From the IMG/VR virus record IMGVR_UViG_3300048835_000195, positions 1 through 46,858 of that record: a stretch of 46,858 nucleotides of DNA, one strand, 5' to 3'. Made by a program: the position numbers and the translations under genes. A model generated the notes under the pieces. The model was not told where the DNA came from. It worked only from the letters and a program-made list of their open reading frames with translations, and ran no database searches. Of the stretch, positions 5,297 to 46,858 are shown piece after piece. The stretch is from a virus. How positions within the stretch are numbered: the first letter of the stretch is position 1; each line of letters begins with the position of its first letter.

Positions 5297-6714
5297 AACG
5301 TTTGATCATTGCACTGATGGCGCTGTGCGCCGTGGCCCACGCCGACGACCCGCTGGTCTACGTTAGCTCGTGGAATACCGGCGTCAACCGCAACGCGACG
5401 GGCCAGAACCTCGCGGCGCAGCTTGACCGCATCGAGGAAGGCGAGCCGATTTTGCCGGTCTTCCAGTTGCCGAGTCCCGGCTTCGGGGCATCGGCAGATC
5501 CGGCGTCCCTGGCGCGGCTGGCGGAGTTGGGGCTGGCGTTCTCGGTGCGGGTGAACAACGCGGCCAACTATGTGGCTGACATTGAGTCGATCGATAGCTG
5601 GCGGGTGGCGGGGGAGGAGATCGGGCGCGAACTGGCGACGATCGCGGCGCTGGTGCCGGAGCCGCCGCTGGTGATCCTGGCCGACAACAACGAGGGGACG
5701 AAGGCCGAGGCGGGGACGCCGGAGCGGATGGGGGCGCTGCATGACGCCATCGAGGCGCAGTTGCCGGTGGCGTGGCAGCAGGTCATCCGGCATGTGGGCT
5801 ACGGGGTCGGGCCGGTCTCGCATGAACTGGGGCGGAGCGGCTGGCGCGAAAGCGATGTGCGGCCGGACCGGCTGGGCGCGTGGGACGGTGGGAGCCAGCC
5901 TGCGCTGTATATCCATAGCTGGCGGACGAAAGAGAACGACACGACGGTGCTCGGGCCGCAGTTGTTCGCGGTGAACGTGGCCTATGGGCTGCGGCTGCTG
6001 GAAGAGACGCGGGCGGACTGGTGGCCGGAACTGAGCATCTGGCATGGGGAGTCGAAGGGGATTGCCGAGACGGGGCTGACGCCGGAGCGGTATGCGGGTT
6101 ATGCGATGCTCGGGGCGTTCGTGGCGCGGCCGCGCGTGCTGCGGGAGTTTCTGAGTTCGGCGCTGCCGTTCGCGGCCTATGAGGACTACACGCGGGCGCT
6201 GTATGGCGTCGCCAAGCGCATCAACGGCGACGCGACGGTGCGGCGGTTCTGGGAGCGGGGCGAGCCGGTGATCAGCAGCCTGCCCTCGCCGCTGTGGCGC
6301 GACAGGCAGGACCTGCCGCTGGAGCATTACCGGCAGCGGGTGCTGCATACGCCGGCCAACCCGAAGCCCGCGCGGAAGGCGGACGGGACGTGGGACAAGT
6401 CGATCTGGAGTCTGGGGCCGGAATACCTGACGGAGCTGAACGTGTTCGCGGCGGCGATGGTGATCGATGACCGGGAGTATCTGGTGTTCGCGCAAGCGCC
6501 GAAGGGGCCGCTGACGGACGTGGCGGTGGACGTGCCGGGGCTGGGGACGGTGACGCTGTCGGTTGTTCCGCCCGAGGGGGATTTCTTCTATTTCGATGCG
6601 ACGCCGGATGCGCCGCAGGAGCCGGAGATTCCGGTGCCGGTGCCGGGGCGAAAGCCAATGGAAATTATCGCCGATCTGTATCGGCTACTCGACGAACTGG
6701 AGGCTGCACTCTGA
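5293..6714 (+). CDS. Secreted glycosidase-like (TIM-barrel-type) protein
   Basis: A 473-residue protein with a clear signal peptide (MKRLIIALMALCAVAHA, cleavage likely before DD). The mature part starts YVSSWNTGVN and has evenly spaced strand-helix units with acidic strand ends, such as PLVILADNNEGTKAEAG (about residues 126-142) and LSIWHGESKG (about 245-254), which suggests a glycoside-hydrolase-like barrel with Asp/Glu catalytic candidates. A C-terminal Pro-rich linker leads to a short helix (IIADLYRLLDELEAAL) that could dock to the virion. The family is not recognised, and enzymatic activity is inferred. It overlaps its neighbours by 1-4 bases, so it belongs to the same transcript. Confidence 0.6.
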   Translation: MKRLIIALMALCAVAHADDPLVYVSSWNTGVNRNATGQNLAAQLDRIEEGEPILPVFQLPSPGFGASADPASLARLAELGLAFSVRVNNAANYVADIESIDSWRVAGEEIGRELATIAALVPEPPLVILADNNEGTKAEAGTPERMGALHDAIEAQLPVAWQQVIRHVGYGVGPVSHELGRSGWRESDVRPDRLGAWDGGSQPALYIHSWRTKENDTTVLGPQLFAVNVAYGLRLLEETRADWWPELSIWHGESKGIAETGLTPERYAGYAMLGAFVARPRVLREFLSSALPFAAYEDYTRALYGVAKRINGDATVRRFWERGEPVISSLPSPLWRDRQDLPLEHYRQRVLHTPANPKPARKADGTWDKSIWSLGPEYLTELNVFAAAMVIDDREYLVFAQAPKGPLTDVAVDVPGLGTVTLSVVPPEGDFFYFDATPDAPQEPEIPVPVPGRKPMEIIADLYRLLDELEAAL

Positions 6715-24526: not shown

Positions 24527-24756
24527 GTGTAGCCCCCGCGCCCCATTTCCCGGCATTTCACGGCATTTAAGACGGTTTCGGAGCTACACTTTTCGGGCGA
24601 TCAAGCATCCGTCAAGCAACGCGAAAATCCCTGATTTCATTGGCTTTTGGTGCGGACGCCGGGACTCGAACCCGGACCCTTTCGGACTGAAACCTAAATC
24701 AAGATCAGATCAGCCATTCTCAACGATCCGCGGATTTTTGTAGCTCCGGGTGTAGC
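24527..24756. repeat. GTGTAGC-type repeats flanking attP (candidate integrase arm sites)
   Basis: GTGTAGC occurs at 24527-24533 and 24750-24756, TGTAGCTCC at 24739-24747, and the inverse GGAGCTACAC at 24580-24589. The last two flank the tRNA-like core as an inverted pair. This distribution on both sides of the core is what arm-type sites of a tyrosine integrase look like. Assignment is by position only. Confidence 0.45.
24648..24703 (-). other. attP: attP core: 3' part of a tRNA-Leu(UAG) gene
   Basis: Read on the minus strand, the segment contains an anticodon loop TTTAGGT (anticodon UAG at 24694-24696), its 3' stem, a short variable arm TCC-GAAA-GGG, a perfect T-arm (CCGGG/TTCGAGT/CCCGG, 24659-24675), the 3' acceptor strand CGTCCGC, discriminator A and encoded CCA (24648-24650). 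There is no D-arm, so it is not a functional tRNA. It lies just downstream of the integrase stop, the classic layout in which integration restores a host tRNA-Leu gene. Exact core limits cannot be fixed without host sequence. Confidence 0.85.
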
Positions 24757-25934
24757 AGGGCCTCGATGGCCTCGGCGATGGGTTCCAGGTCCTGGAGCAG
24801 GGCATCGGCCATGTAGTGGCGCGCGCTGATGCGGCCTACGCGGCTGGAGGTGTGGCCGATCCAGGCCTCGACCAGATCGGAGTCGAGCCGCGGGCGGCGA
24901 CGGTGGGCCCAGGTCGTAAACGTCTTTCGCAACAGCTTGGCCTGGGGGATGCCGGCGGCTTCCGCGATGGCCCGGTTGAGCTGGCGCCGTTCCATGGCCG
25001 CTCCCCGGCGCCGGCCGATCAGGCCGCCGATCAGGGGGGCCGCGGGATCGTCGCCGACCAGGGGGCGGAGCCACTCCAGGATCGTCGGGGGCAGCGGCAG
25101 CAAGCGGCGGCTGGTCGGGTTTTTCGCGCGGCGTCCGCCGACTTGGAGGGTTGCGGCGTCAAGGTCCACGTCGCCGACCGCGAGGCGCCCGATTTCAGAG
25201 GGGCGCAGGCCCATGAGCCCCGAGAGGGCCACAGCGGCCCGCATCCGAGCATCACCGGCCTCTGAGAGTCGGGAAAGGGCCTTCCTGACCGCTTCCATGG
25301 GCGGGATCGGTGTTTCACGTGGAACGTCGTCGCGTTCGTCCAGCACAAGCCCGCCGATCACGTCGGACCCGCCCCGGCTGGCCGCCATGCGGGTTGCCCG
25401 GCGAAGCGCTATGAGGTGATGCCGGCGCGTGTCGTATTTCGCCCCCCGGGTGCGCAGCTCGGCAATCCAGCCGGAGACGTGCTCCAAGCGGATATCGTCC
25501 ACGTATTCCAGGCCGGACCATTCGGCAAACCGGCGGATCTCCCGGTAATGCCGATCGTATTCCTCGGGCGAGCGCTGGGCTTCGCGGCGCGTGCTCGGGT
25601 GCAGGTCCCAGGCGTCCACGATGCGCAGCCGCGCGAACAGCTCCACTTCGGGCCTTGCCCGCTGGCCGGTCAGCAGTTCCTCGGCTTGCCGGGGCGTAAT
25701 GGCCCTCAGCCGGGCGGCATGGCGGATGCTCTCGGGGTCGGGGTCGATCTCCAGCAGTCGGCAGTAACGCTCGCACTCACCGGCATAGGCCAGCGCCGCG
25801 GCGCGCTCGTCTTCGGCTCCGGCGAGAGCCCGGGCCGGGATGCGAATCTGCTTTCTCGCGTTGCGGCTGGGCATGCGGCCCAAGGGGCGGAAGCGGGCAA
25901 TCCAGCCCTTGGTGTCACGGTAGGCGGAGGACAT
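24720..25934 (-). CDS. int: Tyrosine-family integrase
   Basis: A 404-residue site-specific recombinase that integrates the phage at a tRNA-Leu gene. Catalytic residues are visible: Arg244 (MGLRPSEIGRL), likely Lys271, Arg336 in KLLRKTF (the usual His of box II is Lys333), His361 in WIGHTS and nucleophile Tyr374 in ARHYM. Residues about 90-185 form the SAM-like core-binding domain, and the N-terminus is basic, as in arm-binding domains. Its ATG overlaps the BRO/DinD stop (ATGA), and its stop is 17 bases from attP. Confidence 0.93.
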   Translation of the reverse strand: MSSAYRDTKGWIARFRPLGRMPSRNARKQIRIPARALAGAEDERAAALAYAGECERYCRLLEIDPDPESIRHAARLRAITPRQAEELLTGQRARPEVELFARLRIVDAWDLHPSTRREAQRSPEEYDRHYREIRRFAEWSGLEYVDDIRLEHVSGWIAELRTRGAKYDTRRHHLIALRRATRMAASRGGSDVIGGLVLDERDDVPRETPIPPMEAVRKALSRLSEAGDARMRAAVALSGLMGLRPSEIGRLAVGDVDLDAATLQVGGRRAKNPTSRRLLPLPPTILEWLRPLVGDDPAAPLIGGLIGRRRGAAMERRQLNRAIAEAAGIPQAKLLRKTFTTWAHRRRPRLDSDLVEAWIGHTSSRVGRISARHYMADALLQDLEPIAEAIEALLHPELQKSADR

Positions 25935-37046: not shown

Positions 37047-38702
37047 ATGGCAGTAGCCACAACCGAGAGACTTGAGCAAATCGAACTCAAGCGATTCATC
37101 CCGACCCCGGAAAACCCTCGCGTGATCAGCGAGAGCGATCCCAAAACCCTGAGCCTGGTCGAATCAGTAAAGGCCAACGGCGTGCGCGTGCCGGTGCTCT
37201 GCCGCCCGCACCCGGAGAAGAGCGGCTCCTATGATCTGCGCGCTGGTCATCGCCGTCTGGTCGCGGCGCGGCTGGCCGGCCTGAAAACAATTCCCGCCGT
37301 CATCCGCGAGATGAACGACGACGAGGCCCTGACCGAAACCCTCATCGAGAACATGGACCGCGAGGATCTGACGCCGATCGAGGAGGCGCGCGGGATCGCC
37401 ACCATGCGCGGCCACGGCTGGACCATTCAGCAGATCGCCGAGCAGCTCGGCAAGAGCCCGCAGACGATCGCGCGGCGGGCGAACCTGCTGAGCCTCACCG
37501 AACGCTGGCAGCAGGAGATGACGGAGAACGAAGACGCCCAGGGCTGGCCGATCGCGAGCTATGAGCTGATCGCCCGGCTGCCGGCCGAGGTTCAGGACCG
37601 GCTGCTGGAGAACTCCGCATACAAGCTGGCCGACTGGGGGCGCAAGCCGAGAGAGCTGGAGCGGGTGCTGGACGAGTATCGGCACCTGCTGAAGTCGGCA
37701 ACCTGGGCGCTTGATGATGCGGAGCTGGTCGCCGGCGCTGGCGCATGCACCCTATGCCCGAAGCGGTCGAGTTGCCAGCCGGACCTGTTCGCCGAACAGC
37801 AGGAGGATACCTGCCTCGACTCGGAATGCTGGGCGGGCAAGGCCGCGGCCGTCATCCAGCGCAAGGTGGACGATCTGCGGGCGAAGCATCCGGAGGCCGT
37901 GGTCGTCCGGCGCCGCGGGCTCTATGAGCCGGAGCTGAACGCGTTCAATCCGGTTCGCGATTGGGAGACCTCCCCGGCCAAGAAGGGCGAGCAGGGTGCC
38001 GTGCCGGCGCTCATGATCGGCGGGGGCAAGCAGCCGAGCGTGACCTGGGTCAAGCTGGGCAGTGGCGGGGCTGGAAATGCAGGCCGGCAGCCGGGGCAGA
38101 AAAAGACACTTGCCGAACGGCTGGCGGCCCTCACGAAGCGGCGTCAGAAGCGGGCGGTGCAGTTGTTCCGGGAGCGGCTCGAAGAATACCAGAAGGATTT
38201 CGGCGGGGAGGGCGCGGTCATCGACGACATCGCCTTCGCGTGGCTCGCCCTGGTCTACGGAGTCGCCCGTTACAGCTATACCGACAAGCAGCCCAAGTGG
38301 CTCGACAAGTGGCAGCGTCCGGATCTGGACCAGCTCTCGATGGAGACCGCCCGCCGGGTGTGTAAGTCGATCCTAGACCAGATGCCTGAATGGGATGTTG
38401 CGGGGAACTGGAGGCGGACCTGCCATATCTGCCCGGCGCTAAACATGGACGCCAGTGCCTACATGGAGGCGGCGACGAACGAGATCCCGACGCCGAAGAG
38501 CATCCTCCAGGAGCAGGCGCAAGCCGAGCTGGAGAAGAAGCCGGCGAAGAAGGCGGCAAAGAAGGCCGGGCGAACGCCAACGCCGGCAGAGGTCGAGCGC
38601 GGTTACGACATCGGCGGAAACAGGATCGCATACGCGAGTGACGGCAAGGCGATGGAGATCACGCCCAGGGCCAAGAAGGCCGGGAAGGGGCGGAACTCCT
38701 GA
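37047..38702 (+). CDS. ParB-like protein
   Basis: A 551-residue protein. Residues 10-120 are a ParB/Sulfiredoxin-type NTPase domain (ENPRVISE, AGHRRL at 66-71, ENMDREDLTP at 101-110). A helix-turn-helix follows (WTIQQIAEQLGKSPQTIARR, about 125-144). The middle has a Cys cluster (CTLCPKRSSC and CLDSECW, about 235-270) seen in phage ParB-like proteins, then further Cys (TCHICPA). The C-terminus is Lys/Ala-rich. In phages, such proteins act in gene control or DNA maintenance. Not a plasmid ParB: there is no ParA. Confidence 0.8.
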   Translation: MAVATTERLEQIELKRFIPTPENPRVISESDPKTLSLVESVKANGVRVPVLCRPHPEKSGSYDLRAGHRRLVAARLAGLKTIPAVIREMNDDEALTETLIENMDREDLTPIEEARGIATMRGHGWTIQQIAEQLGKSPQTIARRANLLSLTERWQQEMTENEDAQGWPIASYELIARLPAEVQDRLLENSAYKLADWGRKPRELERVLDEYRHLLKSATWALDDAELVAGAGACTLCPKRSSCQPDLFAEQQEDTCLDSECWAGKAAAVIQRKVDDLRAKHPEAVVVRRRGLYEPELNAFNPVRDWETSPAKKGEQGAVPALMIGGGKQPSVTWVKLGSGGAGNAGRQPGQKKTLAERLAALTKRRQKRAVQLFRERLEEYQKDFGGEGAVIDDIAFAWLALVYGVARYSYTDKQPKWLDKWQRPDLDQLSMETARRVCKSILDQMPEWDVAGNWRRTCHICPALNMDASAYMEAATNEIPTPKSILQEQAQAELEKKPAKKAAKKAGRTPTPAEVERGYDIGGNRIAYASDGKAMEITPRAKKAGKGRNS

Positions 38703-39298: not shown

Positions 39299-40465
39299 AT
39301 GGCTCGATACCGAAAGGTGAGCGTGCAGATCTGGGGTGATCGAAAGTTCAGGAGGCTGTCAACAGAGGGGGCTCTCGTCTGCTTCCACATTCTGACGCAC
39401 CCCAACATGACATCCATTGGGGCAATGCGCGGGACCGTCGCCGGCCTCGCGTCAGAAATCCCTGAGACGATCAGCCCGGAAGGGTATGCCAAAGGCTTCG
39501 AGGAAGGCTTGCGGGAAGGCTTATGGGAAGCCTCCACAGAGGCCCCCCTGATCGCTGTCCCGAATTTCCTGAAGCACAACAAGCCGGAGAGCCCGAACGT
39601 CGTCAGATCCTGGGCTGCAATCGTGGACACGCTTCCGGAATGCTCTCTCCGAGACATTCATTTCCAACGAGTTAAAGCCTTTGCGGAAGGCTTGGGCAAA
39701 GGCTTTCGGGAAGCCTTACCGGAAGCCTTCCGGGAACCCTTGCCGAAGGGTATGCCTAATCCCGAGCCCGAACCCGAACAGGAACCCGAACAGGAGCACA
39801 AACAAGAGCGCCACGCCGCACCGCCAAACGCCCCCGCCGCGCCGCCAGCGGAAAACCGTGTGTGTGCGTCTGGGCTGAAAGCACGATTCGAGCAATTCTG
39901 GGCCGAATACCCGAGCAAGAAGGCCAAGCCGAAGGCGTGGGAGGTATGGGAGGAGCTCGCCCCGGATGACGCCCTGCTGGCCGTGATGCTCGAAGCGATC
40001 GCCCTGCAGAAGACCTGCAACCAGTGGCGCCGGGGCGTGATTCCAAACCCCGACACATGGCTCCGAGAACGCCGCTGGGAGGACCAGCCGGCCGAGTCGC
40101 CAGGCCCCGGCCGGGAGGGGAAGCCCGCGCCACCCGCCGATCCGCCCCGCGGCTTTAAGCGCCCAGCCGTGCACCTTCCGAGTCAGCCGCCGCCCAAGAT
40201 CCCGGAGGCTGCCCGGGAACGGGCCGGCGAGTGGGAAGTCGTTCGCGAGCGGCTGGCCGCGACGGTCGACACCGAGAGCTTCGACACGTGGATCGAACCG
40301 GCGCGGTGCCTCGGGCGGACCGACCGAGAGATCTGGCTGGAAGCGCCGAGCGTGTTCATCCGCAACTGGCTGGCAAACAACTTTGACGAGGCCATCGTTC
40401 AAGCCTCGGGAGCGCGACGGGTGCATTTCCTGGTCGCTGAGATTGCGGAGGAGGTCGAAGCGTAA
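39299..40465 (+). CDS. Replication initiator with C-terminal DnaA domain-I-like module
   Basis: A 388-residue protein. The start (YRKVSVQIWGDRKFRRLSTEGALVCFHILTHPNMTSIGAM, residues about 4-43) is a winged-helix replication initiator pattern. Residues about 64-80 and 125-155 are four-residue repeats (KGF, EGL, REAL types) encoded by iterons. Residues about 195-265 (FEQFWAEYPSKKAKPKAWEVWEEL... PDTWLRERRWED) match a common phage replication domain. Residues about 312-388 align with DnaA domain I (WEVVRERLAATVDTESFDTWIEP, LEAPSVFIRNWLANNFDEAI), which in DnaA contacts DnaB helicase. No ATPase domain follows. It probably starts replication and recruits host helicase; the recruitment is inference. 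Confidence 0.75.
   Translation: MARYRKVSVQIWGDRKFRRLSTEGALVCFHILTHPNMTSIGAMRGTVAGLASEIPETISPEGYAKGFEEGLREGLWEASTEAPLIAVPNFLKHNKPESPNVVRSWAAIVDTLPECSLRDIHFQRVKAFAEGLGKGFREALPEAFREPLPKGMPNPEPEPEQEPEQEHKQERHAAPPNAPAAPPAENRVCASGLKARFEQFWAEYPSKKAKPKAWEVWEELAPDDALLAVMLEAIALQKTCNQWRRGVIPNPDTWLRERRWEDQPAESPGPGREGKPAPPADPPRGFKRPAVHLPSQPPPKIPEAARERAGEWEVVRERLAATVDTESFDTWIEPARCLGRTDREIWLEAPSVFIRNWLANNFDEAIVQASGARRVHFLVAEIAEEVEA
39492..39535. repeat. Iteron cluster 1 (12-bp phase) in initiator gene
   Basis: AAGGCTT occurs at 39492, 39504 and 39516, exactly 12 bases apart, followed by a degenerate copy (AAGCCTCC at 39528). The phase equals four codons, so it also gives a four-residue protein repeat. Candidate initiator-binding sites of the origin. 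Confidence 0.7.
39675..39758. repeat. ori: Iteron cluster 2 (12-bp phase) in initiator gene, candidate origin
   Basis: AAGSCTT-type heptamers occur at 39675, 39687, 39699, 39711 and 39723, with degenerate members at 39735 (AACCCTT) and 39747 (AAGGGTA), all at exact 12-base steps. The heptamer is nearly palindromic, so both strand orientations alternate. In lambda the origin iterons also lie in the initiator gene O. Origin function is inferred. Confidence 0.7.
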
Positions 40466-41562
40466 TGGGATCTCACATCCAATGGACGGACGAATCCTGG
40501 AATCCCGTAGTTGGCTGCGACCCGGTAAGCCCTGGCTGCCTGAATTGCTACGCCGCAAGGATGGCCAAACGCCTGCAAGCCATGGGCGTTCGCGGCTATG
40601 ACGGCGTGATTAACGATCGGGGCCACTGGACCGGCACAATCAACCTGGTCAATGAGGCGCTGGAGAAGCCGCTGCATTGGCGCGAGCCGCGCATGGTGTT
40701 CGTCAATTCTATGAGCGATTTATTCCATGAGGATGTGCCAGTTGATTTCATCGCCCGCGTTTGGGCGATCATGAATCGCGCACCTGCCCATACATTTCAG
40801 ATCCTTACCAAGCGTCCCGAGCGCATGTGCGAATGGCTGAATCGCGCCGCAGACTGGGGGGGATGGATCACGCACAACGGCAATCCGCCCTCGGCCTATG
40901 ACGGTGACGGCATCATAATCGGAAGCTCCGACCGCTGGCCGCTCCCCAACGTCTGGCTTGGCACCTCAACCGAGAACCAGGAGCAGGCCGACAAGCGCAT
41001 CCCGCACCTGCTGCGATGCCCTGCGGCGGTGCGGTTCGTGAGTGCGGAGCCGCTGCTGGGGGCGATTGATTTTCGCCAATGGCTGCCTATCTGCGATTGG
41101 TGCGGGGAGGGCGAAATCATGGGTAACTACCGCTGCTCTGAATGTGGGGAGTTCCACTGTGACGGCCCCCAGCGCACCTTTTCTGAGCGCATCCATCAGA
41201 TTATCGCCGGCGGCGAGAGCGGACCGAACGCGCGGCCGTGCAACGTCGAATGGATCAGGGACATCGTGCGCCAGTGCCGGGCGGCGGGGGTGGCGTGTTT
41301 CGTCAAGCAGCTTGGCAGCCGACCCTATGAGCCGTGCCGGCGTTGCGAGGGCAAGGGCTACCATCACGGTTTCGGAGAGCATGGGCATGATCCCGACTGG
41401 TGCACCGAATGCGGTGGATCACAGGCGCAATTCCTTGATCTCAGGCACCCCAAAGGCGGCGCCCCATCGGAATGGGCGGAGGATCTGCGGGTGAGACAGT
41501 TTCCGAATGAAAAGGCCGGCCAGGAAGACACACCGACCGGCCCGGCCGCGCGTCAGGGGTAG
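40465..41562 (+). CDS. DUF5131 (Gp37/Gp68-type) protein, radical-SAM-like
   Basis: A 365-residue protein. The first 120 residues carry the DUF5131 signature: IQWTDESWNPVVGCDPVSPGCLNCYA with Cys18, Cys25, Cys28 (a cluster-binding arrangement), and VFVNSMSDLFHEDVP, LTKRPERM. A conserved segment RFVSAEPLLGAIDF and GGESGPNARPC follow. Two extra Cys-rich insertions, CDWCGEGEIMGNYRCSECG and CRRCEGKGYHHGFGEHGHD... CTECGG, look like added zinc fingers. Its enzymatic target is unknown; modification of nucleic acid or a nucleotide is a guess. It overlaps the initiator stop by one base. Confidence 0.8.
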   Translation: MGSHIQWTDESWNPVVGCDPVSPGCLNCYAARMAKRLQAMGVRGYDGVINDRGHWTGTINLVNEALEKPLHWREPRMVFVNSMSDLFHEDVPVDFIARVWAIMNRAPAHTFQILTKRPERMCEWLNRAADWGGWITHNGNPPSAYDGDGIIIGSSDRWPLPNVWLGTSTENQEQADKRIPHLLRCPAAVRFVSAEPLLGAIDFRQWLPICDWCGEGEIMGNYRCSECGEFHCDGPQRTFSERIHQIIAGGESGPNARPCNVEWIRDIVRQCRAAGVACFVKQLGSRPYEPCRRCEGKGYHHGFGEHGHDPDWCTECGGSQAQFLDLRHPKGGAPSEWAEDLRVRQFPNEKAGQEDTPTGPAARQG

Positions 41563-46242: not shown

Positions 46243-46858
46243 TGCCGACTGACCCCACACGCACCCTGAGCATCCGCCGCCGCTACGAGTCGGAGATTGT
46301 CCGCCGCATCCGCAACCTGGCGCGGTTGGTCGCCTGGGCTGTGGGCGAGGTGGATGCCCTGGCGCTGGGTTCGGGCGTGTTCGCGCATGCCGCCTTCGCG
46401 CCGGATTTTGACGACATCCCGCCGCCGCGGTTCAACTTCCCGACCAGCGCCGAGAAGGTTGCGGCCTTTCTCGCCTGGCTGCGCGAGATGCAGGACCAGG
46501 GCATCCTGGAAGTGATCGAACGGAGCGAGGGCCGGATTGTGGCCCGCCAACCGTGGCAGGACGTTTACATCCGCAGTGCCTACCAGAAGGGCCTGGCCGA
46601 CGCACGGCGCGATCTGCGGATCCCGCCGGCCGTCGAGTCCGGCCCGTTCGGGCTGCCGGCTGACGCCATGTTCGGCTCACCCTTCAACGCGCCGATCCAT
46701 GCCGACGCCGCGGGCATGCTGTTCACGCGCAATTTCGAGGAGCTCGCGGGCATCACCAGCGACATGAGCCAGCGCATGAGCCGGGTGTTAACCCAGGGGT
46801 TGACGGAAGGCCGAGGCCCGCGCCAGATCGCCAGCGCCCTGCGCCGCGAGATCGAGGG
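46242..46858 (+). CDS. SPP1 gp7 / Mu F-like head morphogenesis protein, N-terminal part (cut by right edge)
   Basis: The 5' part of the gene completed at 1-470. It starts at ATG 46242 after an overlapping TGA. Residues about 9-60 are helical (SIRRRYESEIVRRIRNLARLVAWAVGEVDAL), then ERSEGRIVARQPWQDVYIRSAYQKGLADARRDL, a family-typical segment. The last 127 bases repeat the start of the window. Complete protein: 319 residues. Confidence 0.85.
   Translation, partial: MPTDPTRTLSIRRRYESEIVRRIRNLARLVAWAVGEVDALALGSGVFAHAAFAPDFDDIPPPRFNFPTSAEKVAAFLAWLREMQDQGILEVIERSEGRIVARQPWQDVYIRSAYQKGLADARRDLRIPPAVESGPFGLPADAMFGSPFNAPIHADAAGMLFTRNFEELAGITSDMSQRMSRVLTQGLTEGRGPRQIASALRREIE
46732..46858. repeat. Right copy of 127-bp terminal direct repeat
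   Basis: Identical to bases 1-127, in frame with the same gene; it marks where the circle was opened. Confidence 0.9.

Follow-up and report, generated by a model that had tools for sequence, protein, structure and literature searches.

In E. coli DnaA, Glu21 and Phe46 of domain I make the contact with the helicase DnaB, and Trp6 serves for dimerisation (PMC5448010); Phe46 contacts Leu160 of DnaB, and the AAA+ domain of DnaA (His136) takes part in placing the helicase as well (PMC12122000). Phage lambda carries its origin, including the iterons, inside the initiator gene O (PMC6022878), and a separate P protein brings DnaB. Loading of the host helicase by an initiator has a precedent in TrfA-44 of RK2, which in Pseudomonas needs no dedicated loader (PMC4980987). 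Initiators ending in DnaA_N, the profile of DnaA domain I, are also on record, so this architecture is not unique to the phage described below. They include the replication initiation protein (phrog_26369) of the Brevibacillus phages Jenst and SecTim467 and also the DnaA-like proteins of Rickettsia plasmids (DALP; PMC4316617) and a protein of the Paenibacillus plasmid pSb31l. No experimental study of helicase recruitment by the DnaA_N module of a phage or plasmid initiator was found in the literature searched. New in the present locus is the occurrence of in-gene iteron arrays together with a DnaA domain I fused to a putatively lambda-O-type initiator.

The phage genome and its initiator gene

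The window (the whole stretch of DNA analysed, 46,858 nucleotides) ends in a 127-bp direct terminal repeat (1-127 and 46732-46858 of the record), a mark of circular assembly, so that the genome (46.7 kb unique, 64% GC) is probably complete. Its TerL is closest to those of phages of several Pseudomonadota. The early genes encode RecT- and exonuclease-like proteins, a ParB-like protein and a VRR-NUC-like nuclease, together with a Bro-N/antirepressor-like protein, an integrase and a protein with a weak repressor match; on its integrase and repressor-like genes the phage looks temperate. The ParB-like protein (551 aa, 37047-38702, + strand), encoded a few genes upstream of the initiator, has PRTRC ParB as its best NCBIfam match, below cut-off. 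A tRNA-Leu (24648-24731) shares 12 bp at its 5′ end with the 3′ end of the integrase gene (24720-25934, − strand), which likely represents an attachment-site region or a carried tRNA.

The replication initiator gene (39299..40465, + strand) is an open reading frame of 388 aa with PHROG initiator/loader matches and a Pfam DnaA_N match. The full-length AlphaFold2 model consisted of three folded parts with disordered linkers between them, with pLDDT values of about 95 for residues 1-143, about 45-75 for residues about 190-260 and about 94 for residues 303-380. The N-terminal domain (residues 1-143, 39299..39727, + strand) matched phrog_25711 (1.1e-23), and residues 1-205 matched the DnaD-like loader phrog_1701 (1.3e-13); from these matches and the model it is a probable DNA-binding (DnaD-N-like) module. 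An earlier note on this DNA had called this front end winged-helix; its reading as an initiator was right, and the family is corrected to phrog_25711/DnaD-like phrog_1701, the N-terminal half being, by its profile matches, an initiator/loader family of its own. The initiator had no Pfam match to the DnaD C-terminal domain, and the N-terminal part of the full-length model gave no confident Foldseek match, the DnaA_N domain being found again. The FxxFWxxYP module recognised in the same note was borne out: it spans about residues 196-262 (39884..40084, + strand), begins at residue 197 and matches the replication-initiation families phrog_270 and phrog_9474.

Two iteron arrays lie within the initiator gene, neither assigned a strand. 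Array 1 (39492..39534) consists of AAGGCTT at 39492, 39504 and 39516 and AAGCCTC at 39528, and array 2 (39675..39741) of AAGCCTT/AAGGCTT at 39675, 39687, 39699, 39711 and 39723 and AACCCTT at 39735. The 4 + 6 AAG[G/C]CTT sites, 8 exact and 2 with one mismatch, are spaced exactly 12 bp from their neighbours within each array. Eight of the genome's 15 exact AAGSCTT copies fall inside this 1.2-kb gene (P = 8e-10), a number reached by none of 200 synonymous shuffles of the gene (mean 3.0, maximum 6). The gene has five TTA/TTG leucine codons, and every one lies in an array site; across the other main genes, TTA/TTG account for 38 of 649 leucine codons. The phased in-gene arrays suggest that the initiator gene probably contains the phage origin, as lambda O does; the lambda iterons differ in being 18-bp hyphenated repeats. 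No AT-rich element like that of lambda ori was seen. A 6-bp strand-biased repeat, CCCGAR/CAGGAR (39755..39811, + strand), which encodes PNPEPEPEQEPEQEHKQER, occupies the place of lambda's AT-rich unwinding element and is a possible unwinding or single-strand element; similar EQEQ (EQEQEQ or EPEPEP) repeats follow the iteron arrays in most relatives (e.g. L030 and L065). The position of the arrays in the gene and their 12-bp phase are kept in many relatives, and in some the near-palindromic motif differs (AAGGGTT/AACCCTT in L003, AACCGTT in L059 and L063, ATGSCAT in L026, L053 and L054); some others, e.g. L020, L027 and L058, have no clear array.

The C-terminal domain

The earlier note had proposed a DnaA domain I-like module at about residues 312-388, and both the profile search and the structure prediction that it suggested as checks agree with this. 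Pfam DnaA_N (PF11638) scored 47.1 bits (E = 1.9e-12) over residues 312-368, above the curated cut-off of 24.6 bits, and a six-frame search found a single DnaA_N copy in the record (50.7 bits). AlphaFold2 modelling of residues 301-388 with four phage homologues (L059, L094, L095 and L096) gave a domain of order α-α-β-β-α-α-β (pLDDT 86.2, pTM 0.74), and its Foldseek matches in the PDB at ranks 1-6 were all DnaA domain I structures (including 4tps, 2wp0, 2e0g and 2jmp), with 4tps at the top (E = 3e-5, TM 0.76-0.81), rather than any different fold. Ranks 7-8 were Vibrio cholerae DciA from the DnaB-DciA complex (8a3v, 7ykm); this DUF721 helicase loader thus has a related fold but ranked below all DnaA domain I structures, and the profile match of the initiator is to DnaA_N. 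Judged by profile and predicted structure, the C-terminal domain is a DnaA domain I, and in the models its folded extent is about residues 303-380 (40205..40438, + strand), to which the proposed range is corrected.

DnaA domains III and IV are missing. The NCBIfam DnaA model was matched over positions 1-58 of 437 only (22.9 bits against a cut-off of 343.9), domain IV had no match in the initiator in Pfam or NCBIfam, and the initiator gene contains no Walker A motif, so that the AAA+ domain III expected of the DnaA family was not found. In an alignment with 25 DnaAs, the phage domain retains seven residues of E. coli DnaA: W312 (W6), F328 (F22), W331 (W25), P334 (P28), P350 (P43), F353 (F46) and W357 (W50). 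The F353 codon (40355..40357, + strand) thus corresponds to Phe46, a DnaB contact in E. coli (PMC5448010, PMC12122000). The position of Glu21 is occupied by S327, and Glu is missing there in most of the chromosomal DnaAs compared as well. Identity to the sampled DnaAs is about 30% or less, yet the core and surface aromatics are kept. The phage domain therefore shares with bacterial domain I (PF11638; 4tps, 2e0g, 2wp0) the fold, the core aromatics and the Phe46/Trp50 face, and differs in its C-terminal place on a non-AAA+ protein without domain III or IV and in the change of E21 to Ser.

DnaA_N recurs on unrelated initiator front ends. The Jenst/SecTim467 protein has an HTH_36 front end and a Bacillota host, and Jenst has its own DnaB_C protein; the DALP and pSb31l proteins are plasmid-borne with different or variable N-termini, and helicase recruitment is not among the points reported in the available part of their account. 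Two further initiator-like proteins, L094 and L095, carry a C-terminal DnaA_N behind different front ends, and a viral structure library lists a 'DnaA N-terminal domain containing protein [uncultured Caudovirales phage]' besides the SecTim467 protein. No DnaA_N is mentioned in the account of TrfA-44 consulted (PMC4980987), and the likeness drawn to it is one of described behaviour. L096, a viral contig with its own DnaB, encodes at 5989-6225 a separate DnaA domain I protein of 78 aa (66 bits to PF11638), flanked by a portal-like and a capsid-like gene. A single-domain search of viral contigs returned no close DnaA_N relatives, and a search with a three-sequence alignment returned three loci. 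No fusion of FxxFWxxYP with DnaA_N was found in 274 genomes of one class, and a second DnaA_N copy was present in 4 of 286 DnaA_N-positive Pseudomonadota genomes. Several apparent DnaA_N matches in a phage collection proved on inspection to be whole dnaA genes in contigs labelled phage and were not counted.

Helicase and loader genes in the phage and its relatives

The observation in the earlier note that the phage has no helicase, loader, primase or polymerase gene holds as far as tested in this apparently complete genome. The canonical Walker A motif [AG]xxxxGK[ST] is absent from all frames of at least 80 codons, and a looser P-loop pattern gave no convincing P-loop, so that a hidden P-loop helicase or loader was rejected on the six frames. 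Profile searches of the genome gave no match to DnaB_C or IstB. A hidden lambda-P-like loader was likewise rejected, there being no match in the genome to profiles built from the P-like loaders of relatives. The PHROG/Pfam matches of the early genes examined, a set taking in part of the small ORFs, included no helicase, AAA+ loader, primase or polymerase. No P-type loader gene adjoins the initiator; the next gene, directly 3′, encodes a DUF5131 protein (phrog_2045, 40465-41562, + strand), its start overlapping the initiator stop codon.

The N-terminal half of the initiator is common to 13 bacterial-genome loci and 42 viral loci. Among 54 loci classified, excluding the window and L059, DnaB matches occurred at 14, AAA+ loaders at 6, P-like genes at 13 (two of those scanned matched Pfam DUF6475) and a primase-helicase at 1; none was recognised at 19, and 1 was truncated. 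The starts of these helicase or loader genes mostly overlap or abut the initiator stop codon. DnaA_N was found among the loci with this N-terminal half only in the window and L059 (28.4 bits in the latter), and profile searches gave no DnaB or IstB match in either, which is suggestive of the DnaA_N fusion going with the absence of a helicase or loader gene. With only two fusions this association falls short of significance (chance probability about 0.14), and the L059 record is only 10.3 kb, which makes helicase absence there weak evidence. Nor is helicase absence alone a pointer to DnaA_N, given the 19 relatives that have neither a recognised helicase or loader nor the domain. A search with the L059 middle module found 19 further loci, all without DnaA_N.

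Possible roles of the fused domain

The DnaA-like tail and the lack of a recognisable phage helicase suggest that the virus probably borrows the host helicase. The reading we favour, and hold to be reasonably probable, is that the protein binds its in-gene origin and that the DnaA-like tail recruits host DnaB. The N-terminal domain of this lambda-O-type initiator would bind the two 12-bp-spaced iteron arrays, which would serve as the phage origin, and several array-bound initiators would present several copies of domain I, like oriC-bound DnaA. These copies would bind host DnaB, mainly through F353, with or without host DnaC or DciA; once DnaB had been delivered to the opened origin, replication would pass to the host replisome. 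Domain I would thereby fill the slot held in related phages by a neighbouring gene for DnaB, an AAA+ loader or a P-like protein. Recruitment is the best reading because the phage domain retains the residue matching Phe46, DnaA domain I and DciA have the fold in common, and in many relatives this slot carries a helicase or loader gene. The suggestion in the earlier note that the phage skips a loader goes too far, as DnaC or DciA of the host may yet be involved, and its other proposal, competition with host DnaA, gained no specific support.

Several points count against recruitment. The phage initiator lacks the AAA+ domain III that is needed for loading in E. coli; Ser stands at the Glu21 equivalent, though Glu is absent from most DnaAs compared; and Jenst combines a C-terminal DnaA_N with its own DnaB_C protein. 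Domain I partners vary between bacteria (DiaA, HobA, SirA and DnaD), which also weighs against it.

An unlikely alternative is pairing of the tail with the domain I of the host's DnaA, which would bring that DnaA to the phage origin and DnaB with it; domain I does dimerise in E. coli (PMC5448010), and the Trp6 equivalent of the dimer surface is kept (W312). The genome, however, contains no DnaA box (TTWTNCACA), on which ground host DnaA recruitment through such boxes was rejected, and its six one-mismatch TTATCCACA sites all lie away from the initiator gene. It is quite unlikely that the domain serves chiefly to link one initiator to another, in dimerisation or origin pairing, or touches the DnaD-like N-terminal domain of a neighbouring protomer. 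Self-association is known for E. coli domain I (PMC5448010), DnaD-like loaders are similar to the N-terminal half, and DnaA of B. subtilis is reported to bind DnaD, with SirA blocking this binding (PMC10201431); but relatives have the same N-terminal half without such a domain, and the F46/W50 interaction face is kept too. A domain that titrates host DnaB or DnaA regulators and shuts down oriC firing, with phage replication a separate function, appears very unlikely: binding of domain I by the prophage protein YfdR depends on Phe46, and overexpression of the yfdR gene cluster inhibits chromosomal initiation (PMC5448010, PMC4776307), but the phage domain is part of an initiator whose gene holds iterons, and the temperate appearance of the phage makes host shut-off less likely as its main role. 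A functionless relic or stabilising tail is hardly credible, for although shorter relatives manage without the domain, its core and surface aromatics persist at such low identity and the fusion recurs with unrelated front ends.

If recruitment of host DnaB by the tail is correct, a small part of DnaA, without ATPase or DnaA boxes, would bring the replicative helicase to an origin, giving a compact system that separates the DnaA-DnaB contact from origin melting. At the level of the family, we tentatively suggest modularity at one slot, which may hold the phage's own DnaB, an AAA+ loader, a P-like protein or a fused DnaA domain I; the in-gene origin would stay and the iterons change, and a domain I of bacterial origin would make one protein act as both O and P without an AAA+ domain. 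Since the motif changes with position and phase kept, origin/initiator co-evolution would be testable across about 20 phages.
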